From Mesorhizobium norvegicum (GTDB taxonomy: Bacteria; Pseudomonadota; Alphaproteobacteria; Rhizobiales; Rhizobiaceae): a stretch of 64,000 nucleotides of DNA. Shown here in pieces: positions 12,333-31,833 of this stretch; position 1 is the first letter of the stretch, and every line of letters starts with the position of its first letter. The position numbers and the translations under genes were made by a program. The DNA lies in contig NZ_SMYZ01000025.1 in NCBI RefSeq assembly GCF_004919685.1, forward strand, positions 124,001-188,000, given 5' to 3'. The notes under the pieces were generated by a model. The model did not search any database. It had not been told where the DNA came from and saw only the letters and a list, made by a program, of their open reading frames with translations.

Positions 12333-13853
12333 TCACACCTTTAGCACCAGCGCGCCGGTCGTTCGTCGCGACTCCAGATCGCGATGGGCCTCCGACGCGG
12401 CTGCCAGATCGTAGTACCTCGGAGGCTCGACCTTGATAACCCCCTGTCGCAGCGCGGCAAAGAACCGGTTCAATTGCGGAGCAAGCTTCTGCGGTGTGTC
12501 CGTATAATGGGCGTAGTTCGGCCGGGAAATTGTGACGGACTTCGAAGAGAACCGGCCGATGTCCCAGTTGCCGACTGGGCCGGAAGCCTGGCCGAAACTG
12601 ACGAGATGGCCTCGTACTCCGAGCGCCGCCAGCGACCCACCGAAGGTATCGTTGCCGACAGCGTCATAGGCGACATCCGCGCCGGCGCCGCCAGTTAATC
12701 GCATGACGGCCTCGGCGAAATTCTCTCGCGAATAGACGATGACGTGATGAGCACCAAGCCGTTCGACGATCCGCGCCTTGTCGTCGCTCGACACCGTCGC
12801 AATGACCGTTGCTCCGAGATGGCGGGCCCATTGCACCAGCAATTGGCCGACGCCGCCGGCGGCGGCATGGATGAGGACGATCTCCCCCGGACGGACAACA
12901 TGCACGTCGTGCAGCAGAAAACTCGCCGCGATGCCTTTGAGCAGCCCGGCGGCGGCAATGTCATCGGAGATATCATCAGAGAGCTGGAGCAAAAGATCAG
13001 GCACCATGTTGCGCCGCTCGCAATAGGCGCCGACCGGCGGACACGCATAGGCGACACGGTCGCCGACAGAGAAGCCCGACACCGCCGACCCAACCGCCTC
13101 GATGACGCCGGCCGCCTCCATACCCGGCACGCCAGGCGGCTGCAGAAGGTCGAAATAGCCGGTGCGGCAATAGACGTCGATGAAATTGACGCCGATCACC
13201 GTATGGCGGATCTGCACTTCGTTCGGAGCCGGCTGCGGCAGTCCAATTTCCCTGAGCTGCAGCTCTTCCGGTCCGCCATAGCGCTCGACAACAATCGCCC
13301 TGGTTGTTGCGGCCTGACCCGGAGTGACCGTTGGCACGACGCGCGGCACGCTTGCCGATGGCGCAGAAGCGGCAACCGCCCGAGAAGGTCTCGCATCGAC
13401 CGGCGAGCCCACGCTTCGGCCTCGTAGAAGATTGCGCACGGCCGCGAAGCCGGCCTGATAGATGCCTTCGGTGACCAGCTTGACCAGTTCGTCGCGCCGA
13501 TGCGCCGGCGGATTGAACTCCGAGCGCCATTCCCAGAAGGTCGCGTTACCGTCGGTCACCGGTTTCAGCCGCACCGAGGCGACATAGCCCATCAAGGGAA
13601 GCGGCGCTTCGAGCAGGCAATAGCTGAGCCGCCGGTCCTTGTCGGACAGCGCCAGCAATTGTTCACGCAACTCGCCGCCGTCGGCCAGCCGGAAATGGCG
13701 CACCGAGCCGACCGCATCGACCGGATCGCCGCCCTCGATCTCGCTGAAGGCAATCGCAGGGTGCCAGCGGTCATGGCCGTTGAAATCGCGCAGGATCGCC
13801 CAGACCTCGTCGATCGGTGCATCGATGATCGTGCTCTGGAAAACCCTGACCAT
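12333..13853 (-). CDS. Fusion: SRPBCC domain plus quinone oxidoreductase (zeta-crystallin-like)
   Basis: 506 residues. Residues 1-145 form an SRPBCC (START-like) domain (VFQSTIIDAPIDEVWAILRDF), 146-182 an Ala/Pro/Ser-rich linker, and 183-506 an NADPH-dependent quinone oxidoreductase (AIVVERYGGPEELQL; nucleotide motif HAAAGGVGQLLVQWA at 329-343; end AHRDLESRRTTGALVL). The zinc ligands of classical alcohol dehydrogenases are absent, as in zeta-crystallins. An SRPBCC domain can bind hydrophobic ligands, so the fusion may deliver a lipophilic substrate to the reductase. The gene follows a free-standing SRPBCC gene (13863-14300) by 9 bases. Confidence 0.8.
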   Translation of the reverse strand: MVRVFQSTIIDAPIDEVWAILRDFNGHDRWHPAIAFSEIEGGDPVDAVGSVRHFRLADGGELREQLLALSDKDRRLSYCLLEAPLPLMGYVASVRLKPVTDGNATFWEWRSEFNPPAHRRDELVKLVTEGIYQAGFAAVRNLLRGRSVGSPVDARPSRAVAASAPSASVPRVVPTVTPGQAATTRAIVVERYGGPEELQLREIGLPQPAPNEVQIRHTVIGVNFIDVYCRTGYFDLLQPPGVPGMEAAGVIEAVGSAVSGFSVGDRVAYACPPVGAYCERRNMVPDLLLQLSDDISDDIAAAGLLKGIAASFLLHDVHVVRPGEIVLIHAAAGGVGQLLVQWARHLGATVIATVSSDDKARIVERLGAHHVIVYSRENFAEAVMRLTGGAGADVAYDAVGNDTFGGSLAALGVRGHLVSFGQASGPVGNWDIGRFSSKSVTISRPNYAHYTDTPQKLAPQLNRFFAALRQGVIKVEPPRYYDLAAASEAHRDLESRRTTGALVLKV

Positions 13854-13862
13854 TGGCCGATG

Positions 13863-14300
13863 TCAGCGCCCGAACCGGTTTTTCAGTGCGGTGAGGGCGG
13901 TCTGGAACACGCCGGTGCCGATCTGCTGCATCAGGGTCGCCTCGCGATCGGGCGCGCAGTCGAACTCCGCTTGCCATTCGGCGAGCGTCAGATTGCCGTC
14001 GGTGATCGGCGTCAGCGACAGGGTTGCGACATAGTTCTCCACCGCCATCGGGCTTTCCAGAATCGCGTAGCTGCAGGACAGGTCGTAGTCAGAAAGCGCC
14101 AACAGCCTTTCGCGGATTCGTCCGCCGTCCTTCAGCGTGAAATTTCTGATACAGCCGATCTGGTCGGCCTGCGCATTCTGCTCGATGCGGCTTTCGGCAA
14201 CGAACGGCGCCCAGCCCGGCAAGCCATTGAAGTTGCGGACGAGCTTCCAGACTTCCGCCGCTGGCGCGGGAATGACCGAGGATACATAGACCTTGGTCAT
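13863..14300 (-). CDS. SRPBCC family protein
   Basis: 145 residues, a single START-like domain (VYVSSVIPAPAAEVWKLVRNFNGLPGW at the start). It is clearly related to the N-terminal domain of the next gene: both share an EVW-(AK)-(IL) start block, DGG-x-(IL)-RE-x-LLALSD and PITDGN/PVTDGN segments. That points to tandem duplication followed by fusion of one copy. Its likely role is to bind a small hydrophobic molecule in the cytoplasm. No catalytic residues can be named. Confidence 0.8.
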   Translation of the reverse strand: MTKVYVSSVIPAPAAEVWKLVRNFNGLPGWAPFVAESRIEQNAQADQIGCIRNFTLKDGGRIRERLLALSDYDLSCSYAILESPMAVENYVATLSLTPITDGNLTLAEWQAEFDCAPDREATLMQQIGTGVFQTALTALKNRFGR

Positions 14301-14408: not shown

Positions 14409-16595
14409 TCAGTGATCGCGGTCGTCATCATCATCCTTGGCAGCCTTGCCCTTGCTCTTCTTGTCACGGGTCAGGCTGGCTATATCCTTGGCGTCGCGCA
14501 GCACGTCGGTCATGCGACCGAGCGAGCCGCCCTCAATGCCGATCTCCTTCATCAGATTGTCGATCATCGGCGCCTGCACCCGGTAGCGCAGCGCCGAGTC
14601 AATGACTTCGTCGGTGACATTGCGATTGCCGCCGTTGCCACCATTGATGCCGTCGACATGCAGGATCTTGATGCCCTCGATCTTCTCCATCGGCTTGACG
14701 CTTTCGCGGATGATGCCTTCCATGTGATCGAGCAATTTGCCGCGCAGGCGACCGGCCCGCGCGCCCTCGGAAAGAATGTTCTCGGCCTCGTTGAGTTGGC
14801 GATGGCCGGCGGCGTCGACCTCGTAGCGCTGGGCCGCGGCAAGGGCGTGGATCTTCTCCGATTCCGCCGAGGCGACAGCGGCGATCTTCTGTGCTTCTGC
14901 GAGGCTCTTCGCCGCCTTCATCTCGGCATCGGCGGCTGAGATGATGCGCAAGGCGTCACGCTCGGCCTCGCGCTGCGCGCCGATCAGGTCGGTCAGCTTG
15001 CGGCGTTCGGCGATCTCGCGCTCGCGGGCGGTGAAGGCCTGCTCCTCGGCTTGGATGGCCTTGGCACGAACCGCCTCCGAGGCCGCGATCGCCGAGGACC
15101 GTTCCTGCGTCTTCTTGGCGATATCGATCGCCTTCTGGATCTCGGCAATTTCGATCTTCTGGTCGCGATCGACGCCAAGCTGCCTGATATCGCGATCCTT
15201 GATCAGGCGCGCTTCCTCGATGCCGCGTTCGGTGGTGATGCGGGCGCGTTCGACCTCTTCGCCAGCCGAAATCTCGGCTTCCTCGAAGGCCTGACGTTTG
15301 GCGATCTGCAGTGCTTCGAGATGACGCTCCCTTGCAATCCTGACCTCGTCGATGGCGCGATCCTGCGCAATCCGCGCCGTCTCGGTCGCCTGGTTCTCGA
15401 CGATCTCGGCGCGGCGCTTTTCCGCCTCGGCCTTGGTCACTTCCAGCGCCTTTTCGGCCAGAGCGATCTGGCGCTCCAGTTCGGCGACCTCGAGCAGTTT
15501 CCTGCGCTCGATCTCGAGCTGGCTCTGCGTGCCCTCGCGCTCGATGCGGGCCCTTTCCAGCGACAGTTCAAGCGCGATCTGCTCGCGCTCGGTCAGCTCG
15601 CGCATTTTCATCTCGGTCTCGTCGAGCGACCGGCGGCGAGCGATCTCTCGACGCTGTGTGTCCTCCTCGCTCTTGATGCGCTCCTCGGTGATGTTGCGCT
15701 CCTGGTTGAGGCGCGACTTCTCGACGGCTTCGCGCGATGACAGCTGCGCCTGTTCCGATTCCTGGTCGCGCAGCGCGCGATCGATGGCGAGCTCGGAGCG
15801 TTGGGCGGCACGGCGGATCTCGACCTCGCGCTCCTGCTCCAAGCGCGCATATTCGCTGTCGCGGTCGATCTCCAGCACCTTGCGCTGGGTGTCGAGGTTC
15901 TGGTTGCGGATGTCGACCAGGGTGCGCTGCTCGATCTCGTTGCGCATCCGGCGACGGGTCTCGATCGATTCCGTCAGTTGCGTCAGGCCTTCGGCGTCGA
16001 AGGCGTTGGACGGGTCGAAATATTCCAGGCTGGTCTGGTCGAGATCGACGATGGCGACGCTCTCCAGCTCAAGCCCGTTGGCGGCGAGCGATTCCTTGGC
16101 AAGGCTGCGCACCTTGGCGGCATAGTCACCGCGTAGTTCGTGCATCTCCTCGAGCGTCATCTGTGCGGCGACGGTCCGCAGGGCGCCGGCGAACTTGCCT
16201 TCCAGCAGTTCGCGCAGGCTGTCGGGCTGCAACGTGCGGCGGCCAAGCGTCTGCGCGGCAGCGGCGACCAGCTCGCGGCTGGCGCCGACGCGGACGAAGA
16301 ACTCGGCGATCAGATCGACGCGCATGCGGTTTTTGGTGATCAGCGCAAAACCATCCTCGCGGCGCACCTCGATGCGCAGGACGTTCATGTTGACCGGGGT
16401 GATCTCGTGCAGCACCGGAATGACGAAGGCGCCGCCATTCACCACCACCTTCTCGCCCATGAAGCCGGTGCGGACGAACGCCGTCTCCTTGGTCGAGCGG
16501 CGATAGAGCCAGCGCAAGATGTAGACGGCGATCACCACGACGACCGCGGCAATGATCAGCCACAACAGGAAAGCGCCAAAGGTTTGCGCGTCCAT
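14409..16595 (-). CDS. Flotillin/SPFH-band 7 family protein (YuaG/YqiK-like)
   Basis: 728 residues. One N-terminal membrane segment (about 9-30: LLWLIIAAVVVVIAVYIL) is followed by an SPFH domain (about 35-200, TGFMGEKVVVNGGAFVIPVLHEIT) and a very long charged coiled coil of Glu/Arg/Ala repeats (about 200-620). The end is a flotillin-like tail with a Gly-rich part and a DDDDD stretch. Flotillins form oligomeric membrane-scaffold assemblies at the cytoplasmic face. No NfeD-type partner is adjacent. It is preceded by 89 bases without a gene that hold a weak 6-bp hairpin (16619-16638). Confidence 0.88.
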   Translation of the reverse strand: MDAQTFGAFLLWLIIAAVVVVIAVYILRWLYRRSTKETAFVRTGFMGEKVVVNGGAFVIPVLHEITPVNMNVLRIEVRREDGFALITKNRMRVDLIAEFFVRVGASRELVAAAAQTLGRRTLQPDSLRELLEGKFAGALRTVAAQMTLEEMHELRGDYAAKVRSLAKESLAANGLELESVAIVDLDQTSLEYFDPSNAFDAEGLTQLTESIETRRRMRNEIEQRTLVDIRNQNLDTQRKVLEIDRDSEYARLEQEREVEIRRAAQRSELAIDRALRDQESEQAQLSSREAVEKSRLNQERNITEERIKSEEDTQRREIARRRSLDETEMKMRELTEREQIALELSLERARIEREGTQSQLEIERRKLLEVAELERQIALAEKALEVTKAEAEKRRAEIVENQATETARIAQDRAIDEVRIARERHLEALQIAKRQAFEEAEISAGEEVERARITTERGIEEARLIKDRDIRQLGVDRDQKIEIAEIQKAIDIAKKTQERSSAIAASEAVRAKAIQAEEQAFTAREREIAERRKLTDLIGAQREAERDALRIISAADAEMKAAKSLAEAQKIAAVASAESEKIHALAAAQRYEVDAAGHRQLNEAENILSEGARAGRLRGKLLDHMEGIIRESVKPMEKIEGIKILHVDGINGGNGGNRNVTDEVIDSALRYRVQAPMIDNLMKEIGIEGGSLGRMTDVLRDAKDIASLTRDKKSKGKAAKDDDDDRDH

Positions 16596-16684
16596 GATCT
16601 ATCCTCCCCAAGACGATGCGGTCGGCGCGAGGCGACCGGCACTATTTCCAAACATCCACCCGCACGGTGGCGAAGTCCAATTCT

Positions 16685-18901
16685 TCATGCCCGCCTCTGC
16701 AGCTTCGGCGTGATCGCGTGGAACGCATCGATCACCGCATCGACGAAGGGCGTATCGTTGATGTTCCCCCGCACCCGCTCGACATGGCGCAGCGGTGTGC
16801 GGCGAACGGTCTTCTCGATGGCCTCGAACAACGCGTTGTCGGCTTCCGGGTCGTGAAAGGGCTGACCCGGTGCGTCGAGCATCGAGACGCCGCCTTCAGG
16901 CAGCAGGAAACGCACCGGGCCGTTCATGGCGTTGAGCCGCGCGCCGATCCATTCGCCGAAGGCACGGTTCTCATCGCGTGTGGTGCGCATCAGCGTGACG
17001 TTCGGATTGTGGATGACGAATTTGCGGCTGCGGAATTTCTCCGGCACGCTGTCGCGCGGGCCGAAATTGACCATGTCGAGCGCGCCGGTCGAGCCGACAT
17101 AGGGCAATCCGGTGCGGATCGCCGCGCCGAAGCGGTCCTCCGTCGCCGGGAAGACGCCGCCAACGATCATGTCGGCCACTTCCGTGGTGGTGAGGTCAAG
17201 GAACGCCGACAGCAGCCGGGAATCGCCGAGGTTTTCCATGGCGCGCCCGCCGATGCCGGTGGCGTGGAAGACGAGGCAGTCATAGTCCGCCTCAAGCCGT
17301 CTGGTCACCGCTTGAACCAGAGGCGTGGTGACGCCGAACATGGTGATGCCAACCGCCGGCCGAGCCAGTTTGCGTTTTGCTTCCCAGGCCTCGGCGCTGG
17401 GCAGTTGCGCGACCATGCCGGCCATGGCGTGCGCGGCATTGGACAGCACCTGTTCCGTGATCGAATTCAGCCCCTGCACATCGGCGACCGAATGGAACAT
17501 CAATATGTCGGCGCCGCCGACATATTTGGCGACATCGCCCGCCGCCACCGTCGAAACCATCAGCTTGGGGATGCCAACCGGCAGAACCCGCATGCCGGCC
17601 GTCGCCAGCGTTGTGCCGCCGGAGCCGCCGGCCGAGATGACGCCGCCGATGCGCGGCTCGCGTTCGATCCAGCGCGCGAAGGCCTCAGCCATGGCGCTGA
17701 CCGAACCGCCGCGATCATTGGTGAAGACCGAGGACGAACCGCGCGCGTGCATGCCGGCCACCTGCATGGCGGGCACGTCGGCGCTTGTCGGTTTGCCCGA
17801 TGTCGAGAGATCAACGGTGCGCACCGGAATGCCCAGCGACTTCAGCCGATCAGCAACGAAGCGCAATTCCTTGCCCTTGGTGTCGAAGGTGCCGACGACC
17901 AGAACTGTCCTGCCGATGCGCTCTGCAAAGGGGATGGCGAAGACCTTTTTCAGATCGTCTTGGGGTGCTGCCTTGTCGACCGCCGCCTGCCGCAATTCGG
18001 TGACCGGCACGTTCCAGCGGTTGGGCAGTTCGGTGACCGGGCGATAGATGCCGTTCTGCGGCATTGGCTCCGCCGAGCCGGCGCCAGTGCGATCAACGCG
18101 ATAGACTTCCGCCAGTTGTTCCTTGGCCTGCGCCGCGTCCGCCGCCGTGACCGGCGCTTCCTCGGCATGGCGGCCGACGCCAAGCAGCCGCTGCTGCAAC
18201 TCGCGGTCGGCGGCGAGCGCCTTTGCGTCCATCAGCCGGTTGATACGGCCATTGACCATGATGGCGACCTGGTTCGACACCGCGGTCGCCACGCCGATGT
18301 TCTGCTCGATGACAAGCACCGCCATCTCGCCTTCGGCGGCGAGGTTGATCAGCATCTGCTCGACCTGGTCGACGATGATCGGCGCCAGGCCTTCGGTCGG
18401 TTCGTCCATGACCAGCAGCTTCGGGTCGCTGAGCAGTGCGCGCGAGATCGCCAGCATCTGCTGTTCGCCACCCGACAACTGCGAGCCGCCATTGCCGCGG
18501 CGCTCGGCCAGGCGCGGAAAGGTTTGATAGACGCGCTCGACGGTCCAGTTGGCATCGCGCCTGTTGCCGGCGGCAAGCCGCAGATGCTCGTCGACCGTCA
18601 GGCTTGGCCAGACGCGACGGCCCTGCGGCACATAGCCAACGCCGAGGCGATGGATCTCGTGCGGTTCGTGCGCCGATATCTCGCGGCCATCGACGCGAAT
18701 GGAACCGGAGCGCGCCCGCTTCAGCCCAACGATGGTGTTGCACAGCGTCGACTTGCCCATGCCGTTGCGGCCAACCACTGACAGCACGCCGCTTTCCAGC
18801 GCCAGCGAAACACCCTGCAGCGCATGGCTCTCGCCGTAGAAGACCTGCAAGTCGTCTATCCGCAGGATTGCCTTGGCTATCTTGCTGGGGCGCTCAGCCA
18901 T
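16685..18901 (-). CDS. Fusion: LivF-type ABC ATPase plus Tm-1-like/UPF0261 domain
   Basis: 738 residues from the ATG at 18901, which overlaps the LivG stop by 8 bases. Residues 1-242 are a complete LivF ATPase: Walker A GRNGMGKST at 44-52, LSGGEQQ at 142-148, Walker B LLVMDEP at 162-168. Residues 243-328 are a linker. Residues 330-738 match the Tm-1-like/UPF0261 family (RTVLVVGTFDTKGKEL; ISAGGSGGTTLATAGM; VFHATGIGGRAMENL). Tm-1 domains are reported to bind ATP, and the family is found next to TIM-barrel hydrolases, but its role in bacteria is poorly known. Last gene of the eight-gene importer operon. Confidence 0.88.
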   Translation of the reverse strand: MAERPSKIAKAILRIDDLQVFYGESHALQGVSLALESGVLSVVGRNGMGKSTLCNTIVGLKRARSGSIRVDGREISAHEPHEIHRLGVGYVPQGRRVWPSLTVDEHLRLAAGNRRDANWTVERVYQTFPRLAERRGNGGSQLSGGEQQMLAISRALLSDPKLLVMDEPTEGLAPIIVDQVEQMLINLAAEGEMAVLVIEQNIGVATAVSNQVAIMVNGRINRLMDAKALAADRELQQRLLGVGRHAEEAPVTAADAAQAKEQLAEVYRVDRTGAGSAEPMPQNGIYRPVTELPNRWNVPVTELRQAAVDKAAPQDDLKKVFAIPFAERIGRTVLVVGTFDTKGKELRFVADRLKSLGIPVRTVDLSTSGKPTSADVPAMQVAGMHARGSSSVFTNDRGGSVSAMAEAFARWIEREPRIGGVISAGGSGGTTLATAGMRVLPVGIPKLMVSTVAAGDVAKYVGGADILMFHSVADVQGLNSITEQVLSNAAHAMAGMVAQLPSAEAWEAKRKLARPAVGITMFGVTTPLVQAVTRRLEADYDCLVFHATGIGGRAMENLGDSRLLSAFLDLTTTEVADMIVGGVFPATEDRFGAAIRTGLPYVGSTGALDMVNFGPRDSVPEKFRSRKFVIHNPNVTLMRTTRDENRAFGEWIGARLNAMNGPVRFLLPEGGVSMLDAPGQPFHDPEADNALFEAIEKTVRRTPLRHVERVRGNINDTPFVDAVIDAFHAITPKLQRRA

Positions 18902-19679
18902 GCTTGCCCCCGAGATAGATTTCCTGGACCTCTGGATCGGCCTCGATCTCTTGCGGCGTGCCTTCCTTGAACAGGCGGCCATTGTGCATCATCGAGACAT
19001 ATTCCGACACGCGGAGCGCGACATCGAGATCGTGCTCGATGATGATGTAGCCGATGTGCTTCGGCAATGCGTTGAGGATGGCGACAAGGTCGCGGCGCTC
19101 AGTCGGTGAAAGCCCGGCCGCCGGCTCGTCGAACAGGATGAAGCGCGGCGCTCCAGCCAATGCGAGTGCGATTTCCAGTTGGCGCTGCTGACCGTGGCTC
19201 AGCGTCGCCACCAGCGTGTCGCGATAGGCTTCGAGATGCACGGCGTTGAGGATCGATTCCGCCTGCACCATGTTGACGTCGGTGATGGCCGGACGCAGCA
19301 GCGAAAACCGCCGGCGCGAGACGCCGCGGCAAGCGAGAAAGATGGAATCGAGGACCGACAGGCCCTTGAACAGCTGCGAAATCTGATAGGTGCGCCGCAG
19401 CCCGCGCCGGATGCGTTCATGCGGCGGCAGGTCGGTGATGTCCTCGCCGAAGAAGCGGATGCGGCCCGATGTCGGCAGGAAATCGCCGGTCACGGCGTTG
19501 AACAGCGTCGTCTTGCCGGCGCCATTGGAGCCGAGGACCGCGCGCCGTTCGCCGGCCGCGATCCTCATATTGATGCCCGAGAGCGCCACCAGTGCCCCGA
19601 AATGCCGTGCCACGCCATCGAGTTCCAGCGCATAGGCGCCGGAGCTCTGGAGACGGTTTGCTGCGAAGCTTTCGGTCAC
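18894..19679 (-). CDS. livG: Branched-chain amino acid-type ABC transporter ATP-binding protein
   Basis: 261 residues. Walker A GSNGAGKTT at 50-58, signature LSHGQQRQLE, Walker B FILFDEPAAG and the H-loop Asp-His pair in IIEHDLDVAL are visible. The insertion after Walker A with RRTYQISQLF is typical of LivG. It pairs with the LivF domain of the downstream fusion to drive LivH/LivM. The gap to the binding-protein gene is 25 bases. Confidence 0.9.
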   Translation of the reverse strand: MTESFAANRLQSSGAYALELDGVARHFGALVALSGINMRIAAGERRAVLGSNGAGKTTLFNAVTGDFLPTSGRIRFFGEDITDLPPHERIRRGLRRTYQISQLFKGLSVLDSIFLACRGVSRRRFSLLRPAITDVNMVQAESILNAVHLEAYRDTLVATLSHGQQRQLEIALALAGAPRFILFDEPAAGLSPTERRDLVAILNALPKHIGYIIIEHDLDVALRVSEYVSMMHNGRLFKEGTPQEIEADPEVQEIYLGGKHG

Positions 19680-19704: not shown

Positions 19705-20952
19705 TTACGGGCAGCTCGGATTGTCGCGGTTGACCGCGCCGAGCTTCATGAACTCGTCTTCGGGAATGCCGAGCGTCTGGTTGACCTGGGGCACCACCTT
19801 GACCAGCTTGTTCATGAGATTGCCGTCGGCGCCTTCGGTGACCTCGGTCAGGAAGATGTCGGCAATCGCATTGCGGTTCTTGTCGAGCGACACCTTGCCG
19901 GTCGGCGTGTCGAAGGACAGCTTCGACAGCGCATCGCGCAGCTTCTTGCCGCCGTCGGAGACATCGCCACCGACCTGGTCGAGGCCGAGCAGCGTCGCCT
20001 TCATGTCGACATAGTAGCCGTGCGCGAAGAGCGAGGGCGAGGGAAAAGCGCCCGGCTGCTTCTTGTAGGCCTCGACAAACGTCTTCCAGGCCGGCGCGTC
20101 ATTGGTGTCCGCGGTCGGCCCGGCCGACGGCGTGCCTTTCAGCACATCGCGCAGCTTGCCCTTCGAGGTCAGCACCGTCTGGTCGACGGTGATCGAGCCG
20201 CCGATCAGCGGCGCGGAACCGCCACCCTGCTGGTACTGGGTCAGGAAGTTGACGGCGTCGGCGCCGCCGAGCGCGACGTAAATCGCGTCGACATCCTCGG
20301 GAATGGCCGCGATGACCGAAGAAAAGTCCTTGTTGCCGATCGGCACCCAGGACTTCGACGGCACATGGCCGCCGGCCTTGCAGAACTCGGCCATGAAGCC
20401 GAACACCTGCGTGTAGGGGAAGGAATAATCCTCGGCGACGGTGGCGACCTTTTTGTAGCCCTTGTCGTTGAAGGCATAGGTGCCGAGGCCGGCCATCCAC
20501 TGGGCGCCATCGGTCGAGAAGCGGAAGAAGTTCTCAGCCGGATCGCGCAGCGTGGTGTCCTGCGCCGCCGAGGTGCCGTTGATGAAGGTCACGTTCGGTT
20601 GCGTCTTGGCGTAGTCCTTGACGGCGATGCCCTCATCGCCCGAAAGCGGGCCGACCAGCACCTTGACGCCGTCCTGCTCGACCAGCTTGCGCGCCGCGCG
20701 CACGGCGCTGTCGGGCGAGGCATCGGACGAGCCCTTGACGATCTCGACCTTCTTGCCGGCGACCGTGCCGTTCATCTCGGCAACCGCCGTCATCGCACCG
20801 CGTTCGCCGTCCTCGCCGAGCACCGTGAACGGTCCCTCGAAGGTGGCAAGCAGGCCGATCTTGATTGTGTCGTCGGCAGCCAGCGCCAGCGACGGTGCGG
20901 TCAGCCCGGTGAACACCGCCAGGGCCAGCACTGTACGTCTATGCATCCTCAT
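19705..20952 (-). CDS. Periplasmic binding protein, branched-chain amino acid (LivJ) type
   Basis: 415 residues with a Sec signal peptide (MHRRTVLALAVFTGLTAPSLALA, cleavage near 26). The type 1 periplasmic fold begins with IKIGLLATFEGPFTVLGEDGERGAMTAVAEMNG. It supplies substrate to the LivHMGF importer. Family members take amino acids, amides, urea or aromatic acids, so the ligand cannot be read from the fold. Unlike the other importers in the window, this gene is fifth of eight in the inferred operon, after the permeases. Confidence 0.88.
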   Translation of the reverse strand: MRMHRRTVLALAVFTGLTAPSLALAADDTIKIGLLATFEGPFTVLGEDGERGAMTAVAEMNGTVAGKKVEIVKGSSDASPDSAVRAARKLVEQDGVKVLVGPLSGDEGIAVKDYAKTQPNVTFINGTSAAQDTTLRDPAENFFRFSTDGAQWMAGLGTYAFNDKGYKKVATVAEDYSFPYTQVFGFMAEFCKAGGHVPSKSWVPIGNKDFSSVIAAIPEDVDAIYVALGGADAVNFLTQYQQGGGSAPLIGGSITVDQTVLTSKGKLRDVLKGTPSAGPTADTNDAPAWKTFVEAYKKQPGAFPSPSLFAHGYYVDMKATLLGLDQVGGDVSDGGKKLRDALSKLSFDTPTGKVSLDKNRNAIADIFLTEVTEGADGNLMNKLVKVVPQVNQTLGIPEDEFMKLGAVNRDNPSCP

Positions 20953-21003: not shown

Positions 21004-22029
21004 CTATTGGCCGGGACGCAAGGACTCCTGGGCAAGATGTGGCTTGATCCTCCCCCACAACCCAAGAATTCCATCCGGTGAGACGAAGACGATCACCAGG
21101 AACACCATGCCGATCAGCGTGTTGAAACGCTCGGCGCCGACGATGTCGATGGCGAAGGTCTGCATCAGGACGACGACGACCGCGCCGAGAAACGGCCCGA
21201 TCGGATGGCGAAGCCCGCCGATGACGGCAATGATCAGCACGTCGATGGCGGCATCGACGCCGATGGTGCCGGGCGAGACGCGGCCGTTGAACCAGACCAG
21301 CAGCACACCGGCCAGCCCGGCGATGATTCCGGCCAGAGCCCAGGCGAAAACCTTGTGCGCGGTGACATGATAGCCGAGCGCGCGCATGCGGCGCGGGTTG
21401 TCACGGATCGCCTGCAAGGTCATGCCGAAGGTCGAGCGCGAGCCATAGAGAACGGCCGCGTAGGACAACACCGCCAGACCGAGGCAAAGGTAGTAGAAAG
21501 GCCGGGCGTCACGCCAGCCGATGCCCCAGAATGCCGGAGCGCGAATGCCCGCATAGCCGGAATGGCCATTGAAGATGGCGTAGTTCTGCTGGGCGAAATA
21601 GTAGGTCGCGGTGGCAATCGCCAGCGTGATCATGATTGTGTAGATGCCCTCGGTGCGCACCGAGATCCAGCCGATCAGCGCCGACGCCAGTGCCGCCGAA
21701 AGAAGCGCGAAGGGCACCGCGAGCCACCACGGCCAGCCGAAGCCAAGGACGTTGGAATTGTTGCTGCCGAGGATGGCGATGGCGTAGGCGGCAATGCCGG
21801 CGACCGTGATCTGTGCCAGGCTGACCATGCCGCCATAGCCGGCGAGCAGCATCAGCGACAGACCCAGCATGCCGAAGATCAAGGAATAGCCGCCAATCTG
21901 CGTCAGGAAGAAATCCGAGGCCACCAACGGATAGAGGACCAACGCGACGGCCAGGATGATGTGACCAGCCCCAAGTCTCTCCAGCCAGTTCTGCTGCGGC
22001 GTCACGTTGGTGGCAATAGCAAGGCTCAT
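21004..22029 (-). CDS. livM: Branched-chain amino acid-type ABC permease, LivM
   Basis: 341 residues; the ATG overlaps the LivH stop (ATGA, 22026-22029). About nine hydrophobic segments are visible, starting with HIILAVALVLYPLVASDFFL. The LivM core GLAGVLLVWFNGRVSPGTI and the end VIGGLRHPIGPFLGAVVVVLMQ are near the C-terminus. Confidence 0.9.
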   Translation of the reverse strand: MSLAIATNVTPQQNWLERLGAGHIILAVALVLYPLVASDFFLTQIGGYSLIFGMLGLSLMLLAGYGGMVSLAQITVAGIAAYAIAILGSNNSNVLGFGWPWWLAVPFALLSAALASALIGWISVRTEGIYTIMITLAIATATYYFAQQNYAIFNGHSGYAGIRAPAFWGIGWRDARPFYYLCLGLAVLSYAAVLYGSRSTFGMTLQAIRDNPRRMRALGYHVTAHKVFAWALAGIIAGLAGVLLVWFNGRVSPGTIGVDAAIDVLIIAVIGGLRHPIGPFLGAVVVVLMQTFAIDIVGAERFNTLIGMVFLVIVFVSPDGILGLWGRIKPHLAQESLRPGQ

Positions 22030-23075
22030 CGGGCCTTCCCCATGATGCCTTGTGGCCGCACCGCCAGCGTCACCACCATGATGACGAAGGTCAGAACGAT
22101 GCCGTAGGTCGGGAAGTAGACGAGACCGATCTGCTCGGCGAGGCCAATCAGCAGCGCGCCGATGGCGGCACCCGTGATCGAACCCATGCCGCCGACGATG
22201 ACCACGACCAGCGAGGCCAGGAGATAACGGACATCCTCGCCGGGCGCGACCGAAAGTGCTGAACCGCCGACGACACCGGCAAAGCCGGCAAGGCCGGCGC
22301 CGACCGCAAAGACGATGGCGAACACCGCATGCACGTTGACGCCGGAAGCCTGCAGCATGGCGCGGTCGTCGACGCCGGCGCGGATCATCATGCCGACGCG
22401 TGTCTTGTGCAGCATCAGCCACAGGCCGACGCCGATGACGATCGCCGCCGCCAACACGACGACGCGGTAGAGCGGATAGGTGAGGAAGACCGATACGCCG
22501 TTTGAGCGCACTGCGGTGATGATTGGTAAGGTCAAGGCGCCGTCGAGCCATTCCGGCGTGGCGATCTGATAGGTGCCGCCGGCCCACACAGCCAGCATCA
22601 GGTCGGCGGCGACGATCGAGATGCCGATCGAGACCAGGGTCTGGCGCAGGTCGTCGCCTTCGAGGCGGCGGAACACGAAAACCTGCATGACGACGCCCAC
22701 GATCGCCAGCACGGCGAAGCCGGCGGCGACGCCGAGCAGCCAGTAGCCGGTGCGGTTGGTGACCTCGTAGCCGATATAGGCGCCGAGCAGATAGAGCGAG
22801 CCATGCGCCAGATTGACGTTGCGCATCAGGCCGAAGATCAGCGTGAAGCCGCTGGCGACCAGGAAATACAGGCCGGCCAGCGTGATGCCGTTGAGGATTG
22901 CGCTGACGAAGGCCTTCTTCGAGATCAGGATCGCGTTCAGCCAATCCGGCCAGACGGCGAAGACCAGCCACGCCATGACAGCGGCGGCAAGCAGGCCGAC
23001 GAGGCCCCAGGCCTGCCCGCGTGTCGTGCCGCCACCCGAGAGCGATGACGAGGATGGCTGGTCGAGCAGGCTCAT
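22026..23075 (-). CDS. livH: Branched-chain amino acid-type ABC permease, LivH
   Basis: 349 residues. The N-terminus has a short Ser/Gly-rich cytoplasmic tail, then a hydrophobic segment (GLVGLLAAAVMAWLVFAVW) before the classical LivH core (GLYFLVASGFTLIFGLMRNVNLAHGSLYLLG). The extra N-terminal segment makes it longer than LivH proteins of about 290 residues. Its ATG overlaps the amidohydrolase stop by 4 bases, tying enzyme and transporter into one transcript. Confidence 0.9.
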   Translation of the reverse strand: MSLLDQPSSSSLSGGGTTRGQAWGLVGLLAAAVMAWLVFAVWPDWLNAILISKKAFVSAILNGITLAGLYFLVASGFTLIFGLMRNVNLAHGSLYLLGAYIGYEVTNRTGYWLLGVAAGFAVLAIVGVVMQVFVFRRLEGDDLRQTLVSIGISIVAADLMLAVWAGGTYQIATPEWLDGALTLPIITAVRSNGVSVFLTYPLYRVVVLAAAIVIGVGLWLMLHKTRVGMMIRAGVDDRAMLQASGVNVHAVFAIVFAVGAGLAGFAGVVGGSALSVAPGEDVRYLLASLVVVIVGGMGSITGAAIGALLIGLAEQIGLVYFPTYGIVLTFVIMVVTLAVRPQGIMGKAR

Positions 23076-24412
23076 GCAGTCAGCCGCCGGCGCTGCTCGT
23101 TCATGCGCGGCGCCTTGTGGAACTTGCCGTCCTTCATGATGGCGAGGATGCGGTTCTTGTCCTGCAGGATGCGCACGTCGGAGATCGGATCGCCGTCGAT
23201 CAGCAGGAGGTCGGCGAGGTAACCTTCCTTGATCATGCCAAGTTCGTCGCCCATGTTCATGATCTGGCCGCCATATTTGGTGCCGGCCTGGATGGCCTCC
23301 ATCGGCGAGAAGCCGAGCATCTCGACGAAGGTCTGGATGTCCTTTGCGTTGGTGCCTTGCGGCGTCCACGCAAAGCCGTAGTCGCCGCCGATGCAGACGC
23401 GGATGCCGCGCCTATGCATCTTCTTCATCGTCTCGATGCACATTTCCAGCTCGCGCTCATATTCGAGCGAAAGCGGCGAGCCGGGCTTGATGCCCCACTG
23501 CTCGGCATGGCGCGCGGTGTTGATCAGCCAGGCGATGCCGGGCGCGACGAAATGCTTGTCCTTGACCGCCTCGAGCATGTCGAGTGCTTCTTCGTCGGCG
23601 AAGGACGCGTGGTAGATGTTCTGGATGCCGTGGCGAACGCATTGCTTGACCGAGCCGGACGAGCGCGCATGCGCCGACAGCACCTTGTTGCGGCAGCGCG
23701 CCTCGGAGGCCGCCATGGCGACCTCCTCTTCCGACATCGGCGTTTCCTCGGCGCCCATGCCGGTGATGCTCTCGCCGGACAAATTGAGCTTGATGGAATC
23801 GACGCCGTACTTGATCAGCTGGCGCACGGTGCGGCGGATTTCCTCGGGGCCGGAGACGACGATGCCGAGATTGAGGCCTTCATGGGGGATATGGGAGGGC
23901 GAGGAATCGCCAAGCCCGCCGACCGTGGTGATTTCCGGCCCCGCCGCAAGATAGCGCGGCCCTGGGAAGCGGCCCTGGTTGATGAATTTTTTCGCGACGA
24001 CGTCGAGACGCGGCTTGGCGGCGGCAGCACCGCGGCCGGCGGTGAAGCCGGCGTCGAGCACCAGCTTGGCCATCTCCATGGTGACCAGCATATGTTCTTC
24101 GACTTCCATCATCTGGATGGGGTCGATGCCGGGTGCGTTGTTCCAGGACAGATGCAGATGCGCGTCGATCATGCCCGGCATCAGCGTCGCGCCCATGCCG
24201 TCGATGGTCGTGACACCCCCTGGTGCGCCACCGCTATAGGAGGAGGACGAAGACGAGCCGAAGCGTGACGAGCCCTTGGTGATCTGCTTGATGCGGTTGC
24301 CCTGCACCAGCACCTCACCGGTGTATGGATATTCACCTGACGCGTCGAGCACGCGCACATTGGTGAACAGCGTGCTGCTCGAACCGTTGCCGTTCCAGCT
24401 GTCGTCTGCCAT
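23072..24412 (-). CDS. Amidohydrolase family protein with a serine-rich insert
   Basis: 446 residues from the ATG at 24412. The metal-dependent amidohydrolase pattern is clear: an N-terminal composite beta domain (FTNVRVLDASGEYPYTGEVLVQGNRI), DAHLHLSW for the first metal site, a His in LSAHARSSG, a His near HGIQNIYHASF, and GGDYGFAW near the last ligand. It resembles imidazolonepropionase/prolidase-like hydrolases. An odd insert of Ser, Gly and Tyr (SRFGSSSSSSYSGGAPGG) sits in the first strand region. It is likely to cleave a C-N bond in the compound imported by the Liv system. Confidence 0.82.
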   Translation of the reverse strand: MADDSWNGNGSSSTLFTNVRVLDASGEYPYTGEVLVQGNRIKQITKGSSRFGSSSSSSYSGGAPGGVTTIDGMGATLMPGMIDAHLHLSWNNAPGIDPIQMMEVEEHMLVTMEMAKLVLDAGFTAGRGAAAAKPRLDVVAKKFINQGRFPGPRYLAAGPEITTVGGLGDSSPSHIPHEGLNLGIVVSGPEEIRRTVRQLIKYGVDSIKLNLSGESITGMGAEETPMSEEEVAMAASEARCRNKVLSAHARSSGSVKQCVRHGIQNIYHASFADEEALDMLEAVKDKHFVAPGIAWLINTARHAEQWGIKPGSPLSLEYERELEMCIETMKKMHRRGIRVCIGGDYGFAWTPQGTNAKDIQTFVEMLGFSPMEAIQAGTKYGGQIMNMGDELGMIKEGYLADLLLIDGDPISDVRILQDKNRILAIMKDGKFHKAPRMNEQRRRLTA

Positions 24413-24464
24413 CACAAGCCTCCCAACCTGCCGAGCGCGTAGTTCTACGCCCGATCTGAAATCC

Positions 24465-25244
24465 TCACCTATCAACCCGTCTCAAAAAATCGGCGAGCCT
24501 CGAGCTGCTCTCGCGCGGGCTTTCCACCGTGGCCCAGTGCCCGCACCGATCCAGTGAGGAGAATACGGCGCCCTTGATCCTGTCGGCAAGCGCCTGGCCG
24601 ACACCCGCCGGATTGACCGTGTCGGCATCGCCGGTGACGAGCAATGTCGGCGCAGAGATCCGCCGCGCATCGACCGAGGTTGCCTTGGCCAGCGCCTCGC
24701 AGGTGCGGGCATAGGATTCCGGGTCCTGGCGGGTGATCGATTCCCGCACGAAGGCGACGGCGGCCGGCGAAGTCTCCCTGGTGTGCGCCGAGATCGCGTT
24801 GGCGACGATCTGGTCGGCGATATCGGCAATGCCGCCCGAGCGCGCCAGCCGTGCCCGGTTGGCGAGGCCTTGCCTCGTCGCCTCGGCCGGTTCCGCCAGC
24901 GCGCCAAACAGCGTCAGCGAGGTGACCAGCGCTGGCTGCGTTGCCGCAATCTGCTGACAGATGATGGTGCCCATCGAATGGCCGACGAAATGCGCGGATG
25001 CGACCCCCATGCCGGCCATGGCGCGGATGACGGCCTCACTCATCCCTTCGATGGTGAGCTGTTCGATCGGGCGCGGCGAACGGCCGGAGCCCGGCAGGTC
25101 GAGCCGGATGACGCGATAGCCGGAAAGTGCTGCCATCTGCGGCTGGAACATGTTCGACGTGCCGCCGAGGCCATGGATCATCACCACGGCCGTGCCTTCG
25201 CCGACAACTTCCGCGACGACCTGGCCAACCGTCACTGTCGTCAT
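24465..25244 (-). CDS. Alpha/beta hydrolase
   Basis: 259 residues. The oxyanion motif MIHGLGG is near 23-29, the nucleophile is Ser in GHSMG (about residues 88-92), the acid is Asp in LLVTGDADTV and the base is His in CGHWATVESP. The pattern resembles enol-lactone hydrolases such as PcaD and meta-cleavage product hydrolases. It overlaps the FAH-family gene by 4 bases, so both probably act in one pathway. Confidence 0.85.
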   Translation of the reverse strand: MTTVTVGQVVAEVVGEGTAVVMIHGLGGTSNMFQPQMAALSGYRVIRLDLPGSGRSPRPIEQLTIEGMSEAVIRAMAGMGVASAHFVGHSMGTIICQQIAATQPALVTSLTLFGALAEPAEATRQGLANRARLARSGGIADIADQIVANAISAHTRETSPAAVAFVRESITRQDPESYARTCEALAKATSVDARRISAPTLLVTGDADTVNPAGVGQALADRIKGAVFSSLDRCGHWATVESPRESSSRLADFLRRVDR

Positions 25245-26119
25245 TGCGCATGCTCCGCAAAGCGGTTTTCCAGCGTGCCGATGCCGTCGATCTCGATGCG
25301 CACGACGTCGCCGGCCTTGAGATATTTCGGTGGATCAAAGCCGATGCCGACGCCGACCGGCGTGCCTGTGGCGATGATGTCGCCGGGCTTCAACGTGATG
25401 CCTTGCGACAGGGTCGCGATGATTGTCGGGATGTCGAAGATGAGCAGCGAGATCCTGGAGTCCTGGCGCAGATCCTCATTGACGAAACACCTGATACCGG
25501 CGGTCGCCAGGTCCAACTCATCCTTGGTCACCGCCCACGGCCCCATCGGGCAGAACGTGTCCTGCGATTTGCCGATCAGCCACTGGCTGTATTTGCCCTG
25601 CAGGTCGCGGGCGGTGACGTCGTTGACGATGGTGTAGCCCCAGACGTGATCGAGCGCGTCCGCCTTCGATATGCCACGGCCGCCCTTGCCGATGATGACG
25701 GCAAGTTCCGCCTCGTAGTCGATGGCCATCGAGACCGAGGAATCGATCAGCACATTGGCATGGTTGGCGACCACCGATTCCGGCACTTTTGAAAAGATGA
25801 TCGGATGTTTCGGGATCGCCCCGGCGCCGGCGCTGGAATCGAAACCGCTGCGGGCGAACTCATGCGCATGCTCGTGATAGTTCTTGCCGACGCAGAAGAT
25901 GTTGCGGCGCGGTTGCGGGATCGGCGCCTCGATCTCGACCTGCGCCAGCGGGATCGGCGACAGGGTGCGCGGCACGCCGGCGCCATTGCGCTCGATCAAG
26001 GCCAGGATACCGTTCCTCGCCTGATCGACGGTGAAATCGAAGGGTGCGACGGTCCGGGCATCAAGATCGACAAGACCCACGCGACGTTCGCCGGCGATCG
26101 AAAAAGTCGCGACCCGCAT
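25241..26119 (-). CDS. Fumarylacetoacetate hydrolase family protein
   Basis: 292 residues. The start at 26119 follows a strong AGGAGGA ribosome site; an upstream in-frame start would add 10 residues. The FAH fold is clear in the C-terminal two thirds: NIFCVGKNYHEHAHEF, MAIDYEAELAVIIGKGGRGI with metal-binding acidic residues, and GDIIATGTPVGVG. Such enzymes hydrolyse or decarboxylate acylpyruvates and other ring-cleavage-derived oxo acids using Mg or Mn. First gene of the minus-strand operon running to 16685. Confidence 0.87.
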   Translation of the reverse strand: MRVATFSIAGERRVGLVDLDARTVAPFDFTVDQARNGILALIERNGAGVPRTLSPIPLAQVEIEAPIPQPRRNIFCVGKNYHEHAHEFARSGFDSSAGAGAIPKHPIIFSKVPESVVANHANVLIDSSVSMAIDYEAELAVIIGKGGRGISKADALDHVWGYTIVNDVTARDLQGKYSQWLIGKSQDTFCPMGPWAVTKDELDLATAGIRCFVNEDLRQDSRISLLIFDIPTIIATLSQGITLKPGDIIATGTPVGVGIGFDPPKYLKAGDVVRIEIDGIGTLENRFAEHAQ

Positions 26120-26141
26120 TCGATTCCTCCTGAACCTTTTC

Positions 26142-26306
26142 TGAACCAAAACCGGCTCTTTCGCTACACGCTATCGCCGATTGGTTCACGCCGCAAGAGG
26201 GCTCTGGCTCACAATTCAACAGAATTTGGGCAGATCGTGCTTGCTTTTCGTCTGGACACTGGACCGAATGGCAATCGCTTGATAAGATTGGTTCAACATT
26301 GGATCA
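26142..26306. promoter_or_regulatory. Four copies of a TTGG(T/A)TCA octamer between the FAH operon and its GntR regulator
   Basis: In the 206-base divergent gap the octamer occurs as TGAACCAA at 26142-26149 (inverted), TTGGTTCA at 26181-26188 and 26288-26295, and TTGGATCA at 26299-26306. Two copies extend to GATTGGTTCA. Repeats on both flanks of a divergent promoter region fit an operator for the GntR protein at 26326. This is inference. Confidence 0.45.
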
Positions 26307-26325
26307 GATAAAAGACCCTCAACGA

Positions 26326-26997
26326 ATGCCGAAGCTCGTCGCCAACGATATCGCCACAATGCTGAAGAAACGGATTTCCTCCGGCGAATGGCTCGAGGAC
26401 GGCCGCATGCCGCCCGAGCGCGACCTCGCAGCCGAATTCGGCGTCGCGCGCAACACTGTGCGCCGTGCCGTCGGCTTCCTGGAGGACGACGGAACGGTCG
26501 TGCGGCATGTCGGGCGCGGCACCTTTCTGACCGCGACCAACCCGACATCGATCGCATCGATGGTCGCACGGATGGAAGGCACTAGCCCCGCCGACATGAT
26601 GGAGATCAGGCAGCTACTCGAGCCGGCAGCGGCTGCCTTTGCCGCGACCAATGCCAGCGCAACCGAACTGAATGCCGTTCGCGAAGCACACCAGACCGCA
26701 TGCGATGCCATGGAGATGCCCGAGTTCGAGCATTGGGATGCCGAATTCCATCACCGAGTGTTTGCCTGCTGCCGCAATGACTTCCTGAAAGAGATCCACA
26801 ATCTCATGCGTGCCATTCGCAACCAGTCACCCTGGTTTGAAATGAAGAAGCGCTCGTTTTCGGAAGAGCGGCGTCAGGTGTATTGCCGGGAACATCAGGC
26901 GATTTTGGAAGCGTTGTTCCACCGCGATCCGGAAGGCGCGAAGACGGCGATGCTTGGTCACCTCAAGACGGTCGAGAAGAACTTGCTGGGCAGGTGA
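26326..26997 (+). CDS. GntR family transcriptional regulator, FadR/FCD type
   Basis: 223 residues from ATG 26326; an in-frame TTG at 26299 would overlap the octamer repeats and is less likely. The helix-turn-helix (MPPERDLAAEFGVARNTVRRAVGFLEDDGTVVRHVGRGTF pattern) is at about 25-65. The FCD domain follows, with metal-site histidines (WDAEFHHRVFACC, later REHQAILEALFHRD and AMLGHLKTV). It is divergent from the eight-gene FAH/Liv operon and is the obvious candidate regulator. Confidence 0.87.
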   Translation: MPKLVANDIATMLKKRISSGEWLEDGRMPPERDLAAEFGVARNTVRRAVGFLEDDGTVVRHVGRGTFLTATNPTSIASMVARMEGTSPADMMEIRQLLEPAAAAFAATNASATELNAVREAHQTACDAMEMPEFEHWDAEFHHRVFACCRNDFLKEIHNLMRAIRNQSPWFEMKKRSFSEERRQVYCREHQAILEALFHRDPEGAKTAMLGHLKTVEKNLLGR

Positions 26998-27909: not shown

Positions 27910-27911
27910 GA

Positions 27912-28835: not shown

Positions 28836-28904
28836 GATCGCTCTCTCCTTCGTCGGGGCCTATTGCCCATGGTGCTTGATCTCGATCTCTTGGATCGCAT
28901 TGCG

Positions 28905-30860: not shown

Positions 30861-30861
30861 C

Positions 30862-31830: not shown

Positions 31831-31833
31831 GAC

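Follow-up and report, generated by a model that had tools for sequence, protein, structure and literature searches.

What does a UPF0261 protein do when it is carried on the same polypeptide as the ATPase of an ABC importer? The question is raised by a gene of Mesorhizobium norvegicum for a 738-aa LivF-UPF0261 fusion, which occupies the minus strand at 16685..18901 of the window, i.e., the whole stretch of 64,000 nucleotides analyzed here; the limits given for it in a preliminary description of this DNA are correct. The literature searched yielded neither a settled function for UPF0261 in bacteria nor a description of a LivF-UPF0261 fusion, and the main text of the plant Tm-1 paper contains "ABC" 0 times (PMC5028733). 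The answer that we favor, at a probability of roughly one half, is that the gene specifies the LivF of a HAAT importer with a tethered UPF0261 enzyme, whose target would be the compound being imported, probably an aromatic one, and whose reaction may be a phosphorylation.

Architecture and distribution of the fusion

The 738-aa frame has zero internal stops (an alternative upstream start at 18982 would lengthen it), and the 3' end of livG overlaps the fusion gene by 8 nt. Pfam bears out the earlier claim that this single frame holds a complete LivF and a complete UPF0261 (Tm-1-like) protein separated by a linker of about 85 residues. The LivF half (residues 1-245; 18167..18901, minus strand) matches ABC_tran over residues 28-169 (E 2.5e-29, over the gathering score), has 1ji0 as its top PDB sequence match and displays, as read from the sequence, all the ABC motifs: GRNGMGKST, Q93, LSGGEQQ, LLVMDEP and EQN, which we take to be the Walker A, Q-loop, signature, Walker B and switch position, respectively. 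The UPF0261 half (residues 332-738; 16688..17908, minus strand) is complete in its N- and C-terminal domains, with PF06792 at residues 332-498 (E 6.2e-58; 196.1 bits versus a gathering score of 27) and UPF0261_C, PF23189, at residues 514-730 (E 3.4e-87; 291.7 bits versus 27); the fusion also passes the NCBIfam model NF002673 (558.3 versus a cut-off of 520). AlphaFold2, with an input alignment of 61 relatives out of 77 references computed, predicts both halves to be well folded, with 10-residue block means of 78-98 outside the ends and the linker, in keeping with their earlier characterization as intact. In a structure comparison that mainly covered the ATPase half and beyond that barely sampled UPF0261-like folds, the predicted model of the UPF0261 half shares the fold of the solved members of the family, including that of plant Tm-1 (PDB 3wrw_D: Z 42.1, rmsd 2.4, 384 residues, 45% identity).

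The window shows neither a frameshift nor a misassembly, and the fusion, far from being confined to one assembly, is found in many independent assemblies and families. Full-length versions occur in 9 of the 37 sampled Mesorhizobium genomes (the other 8 are 86-97% identical to that of the window) and in 4/24 genomes from other families of the order, in one of which a contig end truncates the fusion. Among the 385 genomes of the class sample, 19 match the fusion with E ≤ 1e-150—that of the window, 17 others with full-length versions and G332, where the match is to the UPF0261 half alone, yet LivF and UPF0261 share one 891-residue frame—and 14 other families are represented. Beta- and gammaproteobacterial records with the fusion come from searches outside the phylum sample of 398 genomes, within which it was not found outside the window's class. 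In 80/80 loci among the matches listed, the match runs from the LivF end across UPF0261. Our counts refer to 114 of 115 loci (L071, with no UPF0261 match, was left out) and include a few genomes twice, from two collections (e.g., L085/L156, L070/L166 and L078/L147). Only a degraded remnant of the fusion is seen in the 18 kb compared for G001, and a 1-nt insertion near residue 252 splits the frame in strain AR07 (L104). The fusion is genuine, rather than a product of chance or misassembly.

The importer operon and its deleted TIM-barrel gene

The conserved gene order is LivH-LivM-SBP-LivG-(LivF-UPF0261)-PF09370 TIM barrel-flotillin-SRPBCC, also with hydrolases or a cox-type molybdenum hydroxylase. 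In the window the operon lies on the minus strand and contains the LivG, LivH, LivM and Peripla_BP_6 proteins required of a HAAT importer: LivH (BPD_transp_2) at approximately 22026..23009, from the aligned length in relatives (the frame listed reaches 23369), LivM (21004..22101; BPD_transp_2, start codon unsettled), the periplasmic substrate-binding protein (19705..20952; Peripla_BP_6) and LivG (18894..19679; ABC_tran and BCA_ABC_TP_C), the presumed partner of the fused LivF, which is the sole LivF alongside them. Farther upstream are genes for an amidohydrolase (23072..24475; Amidohydro_1), an alpha/beta hydrolase (24465..25244; Abhydrolase_1, PcaD-like below the cut-off) and an FAA-hydrolase family protein (25241..26149; PF01557), with a GntR/FCD regulator encoded divergently on the plus strand (26299..26997), which also adjoins the operon in some relatives among the matches listed. 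Downstream, a flotillin-family protein (14409..16595; Flot and Band_7), likewise present in most relatives among the matches listed, is followed by an SRPBCC protein (13863..14300; its homolog is so called in a Variovorax record) and an SRPBCC-zinc ADH fusion protein (12333..13853; Polyketide_cyc2 and ADH domains). Fusion and operon are retained across many families among the matches listed, and L083 and L179 keep the fusion although their operon is rearranged.

The fused ATPase shares with the LivF and UrtE proteins of HAAT importers the ABC motifs, the EQN switch and the LivG-LivHM-SBP operon, but bears a 400-residue UPF0261 protein at its C-terminus. The operon proteins fall below every cut-off of the NCBIfam models for LivF, UrtE, LivG, UrtD and leucine- or urea-type binding proteins, with the fusion scoring 223.1 bits against 285.8 for UrtE (TIGR03410) and 166.2 against 441 for the E. 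coli-type leucine LivF (NF008626). The earlier label of an amino-acid or amide importer thus finds no support; a ligand bound to a solved UPF0261 protein and the closest binding proteins suggest aromatics instead (see below).

In 91 of the 114 loci the next gene after the fusion encodes a PF09370 TIM barrel, scored as such when it lay no more than about 700 nt downstream at >45% identity, and in the class sample PF09370 is found in 18/19 fusion genomes versus 22/366 others (Fisher p about 6e-19). Eight of these 18 genomes have more than one PF09370 match; hence, one fusion to one TIM barrel is not the rule. The plant Tm-1 and Tm-1-like proteins combine UPF0261 and a TIM barrel on one chain (PMC5028733). 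The fusion shares with Tm-1 the genomic tie to the same TIM-barrel family, but its UPF0261 is joined to an importer ATPase, with the TIM barrel being a separate gene in the relatives and missing from the window operon. Pfam detects no PF09370 domain in the 738-aa protein, which therefore lacks the plant-type architecture. The locus comparison likewise shows no PF09370 gene in the window's operon, where the UPF0261-PF09370 gene pair is wanting through deletion of the latter. The same two families also adjoin in four records of free UPF0261 and "phosphoenolpyruvate hydrolase family" pairs from rhizobia and azospirilla, which differ in that the UPF0261 chain is without LivF and the nearby transporter genes are of the sugar-type ABC class in 2/4.

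The fusion lacks a following TIM gene in all 19 loci of the window's clade, whose operon has lost it by deletion. Locus comparison places the deletion in the window at the spacer 16596..16684 (minus strand), the site of the TIM gene in relatives. Seven of the 21 TIM-less loci were tested for a scar, using 2000 mononucleotide shuffles each: L108 and L065 were clear (0/2000 shuffles each), with the 3' end of the TIM gene still visible. For the 3' tail alone, the score was reached by 8/2000 shuffles in L107, 24/2000 in the window, 40/2000 in L105, 359/2000 in L111 and 1615/2000 in L118; within the window's clade the scar is clear in 2/6 loci tested, and it has decayed in the window itself.

The genomes of 21/21 TIM-less loci encode PF09370 elsewhere (12/12 and 9/9 in two sets). 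The partner that the preliminary description had proposed to look for is thus present in the window's genome; however, it lies beside unfused UPF0261 at C223 and C207, and 34/37 Mesorhizobium genomes carry PF09370, so that supply in trans is weakly informative in this genus. In the gammaproteobacterial MAG G808 the fusion is the only UPF0261 and the sole PF09370 is 2.4 Mb away, adjoining flotillin, two SRPBCC genes and coxM. Such reciprocal loss, with the TIM barrel in trans and the fusion as sole UPF0261, holds only there among the TIM-less genomes compared; it fails in G803 and G805, where further UPF0261 genes lie apart from TIM. PF09370 proteins from other loci probably take over the TIM role in the window's clade.

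Candidate substrate and chemistry

The UPF0261 protein Saro_1862 of Novosphingobium aromaticivorans has been solved with acetovanillone bound (9mpy). In that organism, acetovanillone catabolism is reported to begin with the single-component kinase MarK (PMC13101465), which we infer to be Saro_1862. Saro_1862 is identical to the fusions at 70/124 fusion-invariant aligned positions versus 61/259 other aligned positions and differs from them at 54/124 invariant positions; overall identity is about 30%, and its 406-residue chain matches the UPF0261 half alone. The bound acetovanillone, the shared positions and MarK would be in line with an aromatic compound and, possibly, a kinase reaction. In sequence, however, the UPF0261 half matches Tm-1 better (E 7.1e-96) than Saro_1862 (E 2.6e-51), and a kinase activity may therefore not extend to it; the unfused C58 protein encoded in the window's genome resembles Saro_1862 more than Tm-1. 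The acetovanillone pathway employs a phosphatase and a biotin carboxylase, for which the operon genes scanned show no obvious counterpart. The ligands of the solute-binding proteins closest to that of the operon point to aromatic compounds. A small aromatic molecule, or a hydrophobic one related to it, is the probable import substrate.

Proposed coupled uptake and its alternatives

We propose that the LivF of a branched-chain-amino-acid-type (HAAT) ABC importer bears a UPF0261 enzyme on a flexible tether. The fused LivF would be the one used by this importer, driving LivHM as a pair with LivG, and the UPF0261 half, normally with the PF09370 protein of the next gene, would act on the compound in the cytoplasm, close to where it leaves the transporter, and thereby physically couple import to the first step of catabolism. 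The likeliest first reaction would be an ATP-dependent phosphorylation, and in the window's clade PF09370 proteins from elsewhere in the genome would stand in for the deleted TIM barrel. The lack of a second LivF in the operon, the persistence of fusion and operon across many families, the PF09370 adjacency and co-occurrence and purifying selection (see below) speak for this reading. That the UPF0261 half acts on the substrate as it comes in, or gates it, as suggested earlier, is plausible.

A more elaborate version, which we offer tentatively, is a group-translocation-like ABC uptake, in which the fused UPF0261 kinase would phosphorylate the exiting aromatic and so trap and activate it, PF09370 would act next, and the invariant Arg-Trp motif of the linker and a flotillin scaffold would hold the parts. 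The PEP:sugar phosphotransferase system performs group translocation; the two would be alike in their working if import and phosphorylation are coupled, but this is a functional analogy only, the fusion importer being ABC-driven and no homology being claimed.

The linker (residues 246-331; 17909..18166, minus strand) is predicted to be disordered, with pLDDT mostly <50 and specifically so at residues 242-251, 261-296 and 302-321. Within it lies the pair Arg295-Trp296 (18014..18019, minus strand; consensus P[T/N]RW), which is invariant among the fusions: RW is found in the linker of 108/108 proteins, versus an expected 10.9% in shuffled linkers (102/108 proteins with a delimitable linker). C-terminal regulatory domains throttle the ATPase in MetN and ModC, and the UPF0261 half could similarly be a sensor that binds the imported compound or its product and ATP to throttle the LivF ATPase. 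Its position at the ATPase C-terminus on a flexible linker, the small aromatic ligand held in 9mpy and an Arg-Trp pair that could signal to the ATPase would suit this role. We nonetheless consider it rather doubtful, as a pure sensor would need neither a full-length protein with 140 conserved positions kept nor the genomic pairing with an enzyme-like TIM-barrel family that unfused UPF0261 also displays.

It is also unlikely that the fusion merely sets expression level or location, with a cytosolic UPF0261 enzyme joined for stoichiometry or recruitment to flotillin patches and transport left uncoupled. The flotillin and SRPBCC genes that accompany the fusion among the matches listed, the length and predicted disorder of the linker and the fact that AR07 appears to live with its split frame are in line with such an arrangement; against it stand the persistence of the fusion in many families, even with the rearranged operons noted above, and the invariance of Arg-Trp.

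The UPF0261 half remains under strong purifying selection after the TIM loss. Its median dN/dS is 0.079 (145/153 pairs with dS 0.1-1.2), as compared with 0.100 for the LivF half (153/153) and 0.218 for the linker (96/153), and 0/140 conserved UPF0261 positions are replaced in at least 80% of 18 TIM-less proteins; a Bradyrhizobium control gave 5/135 by the same criterion. By this criterion, no substitution peculiar to the clade points to a TIM interface that has been freed. That the half has become a relic or been newly repurposed in the Mesorhizobium clade would fit the 19 loci without a following TIM gene and the scar in 2/6 of those tested, but the low dN/dS and the kept positions largely rule out a relic and make this alternative as a whole very improbable. 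Trees and conservation used 108/114 proteins, omitting L104 (split frame), the short L145 and L149 (<640 aa) and 3 proteins identical to others. Support for the main TIM-less clade as a monophyletic group is only modest (0.771), and monophyly of fused UPF0261 was rejected, with the unfused L021 nesting inside the fused clade (support 0.94). This placement and the AR07 split frame were counted against the coupled-enzyme reading. Finally, a frameshift, sequencing error or misassembly merging two separate genes finds no support in the window (AR07 displays the opposite case, a split frame) and is ruled out by the many families whose independently assembled genomes contain the fusion at full length.

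The fusion, present in many proteobacteria, probably processes the imported compound on cell entry. The plant relative Tm-1 is a tomato virus-resistance protein that blocks the replication of tomato mosaic virus; the conserved fusion to an importer ATPase links the UPF0261 family to small-molecule uptake and makes its role accessible to transport and growth assays. Should the fused domain be a kinase, the system would combine ABC import with activation of the substrate by the importer itself, a logic resembling that of the PTS. The Mesorhizobium clade, in which the partner enzyme is gone from the operon and the UPF0261 half is intact, constitutes a natural experiment.

The LivF-UPF0261 fusion and its distribution

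The preliminary description placed an intact LivF-type ATPase joined to a Tm-1-like (UPF0261) half at positions 16685-18901 of the window, and these coordinates are correct: the gene lies on the minus strand (18901 to 16685) as one 738-residue frame with no internal stop. Its ABC_tran domain (residues 28-169) and two UPF0261 domains (residues 332-498 and 514-730) all score above the curated Pfam thresholds. The top family model for the UPF0261 half, NF002673, exceeds its cut-off, and those for the LivF half, UrtE and LivF, each fall under theirs. By these features, the protein belongs to UPF0261 and to the broad LivF family and, by model cut-off, is neither a UrtE nor an E. coli-type LivF. Nor is it a member of the plant-type Tm-1-like proteins, which have a TIM domain that the fusion lacks. 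Two annotated public records (L053:12028-14190 and L054:11947-14199) name the fusion "ABC transporter permease", probably a propagated misannotation; Pfam detects no membrane or permease domain in the window's protein. No description of a LivF-UPF0261 fusion was found in the open-licence literature searched.

In an AlphaFold2 model built from 62 aligned fusions, both halves are confidently folded and the linker lies mostly below pLDDT 50; with a pTM of 0.55, we take the relative placement of the two halves as not predicted. Two crystal structures match the UPF0261 half: that of the tomato virus-resistance protein Tm-1 (3wrw_D; Z 42.1, 2.4 Å, 384 residues) and that of the UPF0261 protein Saro_1862 with acetovanillone (9mpy; Z 33.0, 7.1 Å, 389 residues).

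The proposed fusion is real and widespread, being present in many genomes besides that of the window. Of 37 genomes sampled from the genus, 9 have a full-length version, as do 4 of 24 genomes from other families of the order, one of these four being cut by a contig end. The class sample gives 19 matches in 385 genomes, the window's own counted, the other 18 representing 14 families; in genome G332 the match is limited to the UPF0261 half, yet a single frame of 891 residues, its linker longer, encodes both LivF and UPF0261. All 14 fusion-bearing genomes among the 398 of the phylum sample fall within the window's class, and 3 of 200 matching plasmid records (Shinella, Yoonia and Variovorax) span at least 80% of the query. 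Among named genomes, the best 80 of 597 matching stretches all match from the LivF end through UPF0261; the nearest are mostly Mesorhizobium, and the 80 also include Bradyrhizobium, Roseibium, Azospirillum, Pseudorhodoferax, a Comamonadaceae MAG and gammaproteobacterial MAGs. When 45 fused and 22 unfused UPF0261 sequences were placed on a tree, with one unfused gene represented twice, the fused ones grouped in a single clade, apart from the unfused L021 nested inside, which makes one main fusion event likely. Among individual loci, that of Mesorhizobium sp. AR07 (L104) has a 1-nt insertion near residue 252, at the linker start, that separates LivF from UPF0261, either a sequencing error or a true fission. 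Another Mesorhizobium retains, in the 18 kb examined, no more than an operon remnant comprising the LivG end and LivF residues 1-220 (L071:6478-7399).

Operon organization and the PF09370 TIM-barrel gene

The window operon reads FAA hydrolase, alpha/beta hydrolase, amidohydrolase, LivH, LivM, periplasmic substrate-binding protein (SBP), LivG, fusion, flotillin, SRPBCC and SRPBCC-ADH; a GntR regulator is divergent to it. The LivG and fusion genes share 8 nt of overlap and the operon holds no second LivF, so the fused LivF should be LivG's partner. The core order is kept in relatives (rearranged in L083) and comes in two versions, one carrying the hydrolases and amidohydrolase and the other a cox-type molybdenum hydroxylase with MoxR and a CoxE-like VWA protein. 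The cox-type version accounts for 47 of 114 loci, including L052, L053 and many of L126-L180; MoxR and CoxE-like proteins are present where the locus extends far enough, and SRPBCC genes, which we take to be CoxG-like, adjoin flotillin. Beside the window operon, positions 27115-32622 encode a metallo-beta-lactamase-fold hydrolase and a 3-hydroxyisobutyrate-dehydrogenase-like protein and, further along, frames resembling, by eye, an iron-sulfur reductase and an electron-transfer flavoprotein pair.

A PF09370 "PEP hydrolase-like" TIM-barrel gene lies directly 3' of the fusion in 91 of the 114 loci; it is near by in one (L083), hidden by a contig end in one (L028) and absent in 21 (per unique protein, 86, 1, 1 and 20 of 108). 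Of the 21 TIM-less loci, 19 are those of the window and of its relatives, which come from Mesorhizobium, Pseudaminobacter and one marine MAG; the 18 unique proteins that these loci encode form a clade, modestly supported (0.771). The other two are the MAG loci L118 and L179. For 7 of the 21, the spacer was compared with the TIM gene against 2000 shuffles each. The Pseudaminobacter spacer L108 retains the gene's last 21 nt, stop codon included, identical to its close TIM-bearing relative L112, and that of L065 aligns with the gene's end over 28 columns with 4 differences; no shuffle reached either score. The window's spacer has no more than a weak trace (24/2000 for the 3' tail), the counts for L107 and L105 being 8/2000 and 40/2000, and there is none in L111 (359/2000) or L118 (1615/2000). 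To go by these remnants, the operon of the window's lineage most likely lost its TIM gene by deletion.

A PF09370 gene occurs elsewhere in the genome for all 21 TIM-less loci (12 of 12 in one search, 9 of 9 in another), and six searched fusion genomes that have the TIM gene in cis show one match apiece. In the class sample of 385 genomes, PF09370 is found in 18 of 19 fusion genomes versus 22 of 366 others, with more than one match in 8 of those 18, the window's own included; the sole exception, G399, is an 83% complete genome in which the contig stops right after the fusion. In the gammaproteobacterial MAG G808 the fusion is the only UPF0261, and the only PF09370 gene, 2.4 Mb off, adjoins flotillin, two SRPBCC genes and coxM: the operon is split, both parts being retained. 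For Mesorhizobium, where PF09370 is present in 34 of 37 genomes anyway, the case for trans supply of the TIM protein is correspondingly weaker. PMC5028733 reports that the two families co-evolve as separate genes. Pseudaminobacter soli and Mesorhizobium LHD-90 carry the fusion without its TIM gene, and their sole full PF09370 gene (L189:7907-8914, L190:7861-8715) has no adjacent UPF0261. The window's genome also has a divergent unfused UPF0261 (L091, G000:C58:25216-26418), nearer to Saro_1862 than to Tm-1, with no PF09370 beside it.

Constraint on the UPF0261 half

Taking as conserved the positions that are the same in at least 93% of the 87 fusions whose locus has a TIM gene, none of 140 in UPF0261 and none of 113 in LivF is replaced in at least 80% of the 18 TIM-less fusions; by the same criterion, a Bradyrhizobium control clade has 5 of 135 and 0 of 105 replaced, respectively. 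Within the TIM-less clade, UPF0261 has a median pairwise dN/dS of 0.079 and LivF one of 0.100, with the linker evolving faster than both (0.218); TIM-bearing Bradyrhizobium gives 0.127 for UPF0261 and 0.120 for LivF. The linker pair Arg295-Trp296 is kept in 108 of 108 fusions, RW arising in 10.9% of shuffled linkers. To judge from this sequence record, the UPF0261 half still matters in the TIM-less lineage and, being kept there without a cis TIM gene, is probably not merely a docking site for the TIM protein.

Possible role of the tethered half

The sources consulted establish no function for UPF0261. The nearest chemical clue is 9mpy, whose title describes Saro_1862 of Novosphingobium aromaticivorans with acetovanillone bound. 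PMC13101465 describes MarK as the single-component kinase starting acetovanillone catabolism in the same organism, and we infer that MarK is Saro_1862. When fusion-invariant (at least 95%) UPF0261 positions are aligned to Saro_1862, 70 of 124 are identical versus 61 of 259 other positions, which points to a core common to the fusions and Saro_1862; the remaining 54 of the 124 differ. Among solved structures, the operon SBP matches 4zpj best; other close relatives include 4ey3/4eyg/4eyk, 4evq/4evr, 4evs and 4f06, presumably aromatic-acid binders.

Together, the acetovanillone clue, the shared core and the SBP relatives favor an enzyme tethered to the importer, a reading to which we give about even odds; its main rival is that the UPF0261 half acts as a ligand-sensing brake on the ATPase. 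The narrower proposal of an import-coupled kinase is rather unlikely. For a tethered UPF0261 enzyme, the substrate would be an aromatic compound or one like it, and the likeliest reaction phosphorylation.
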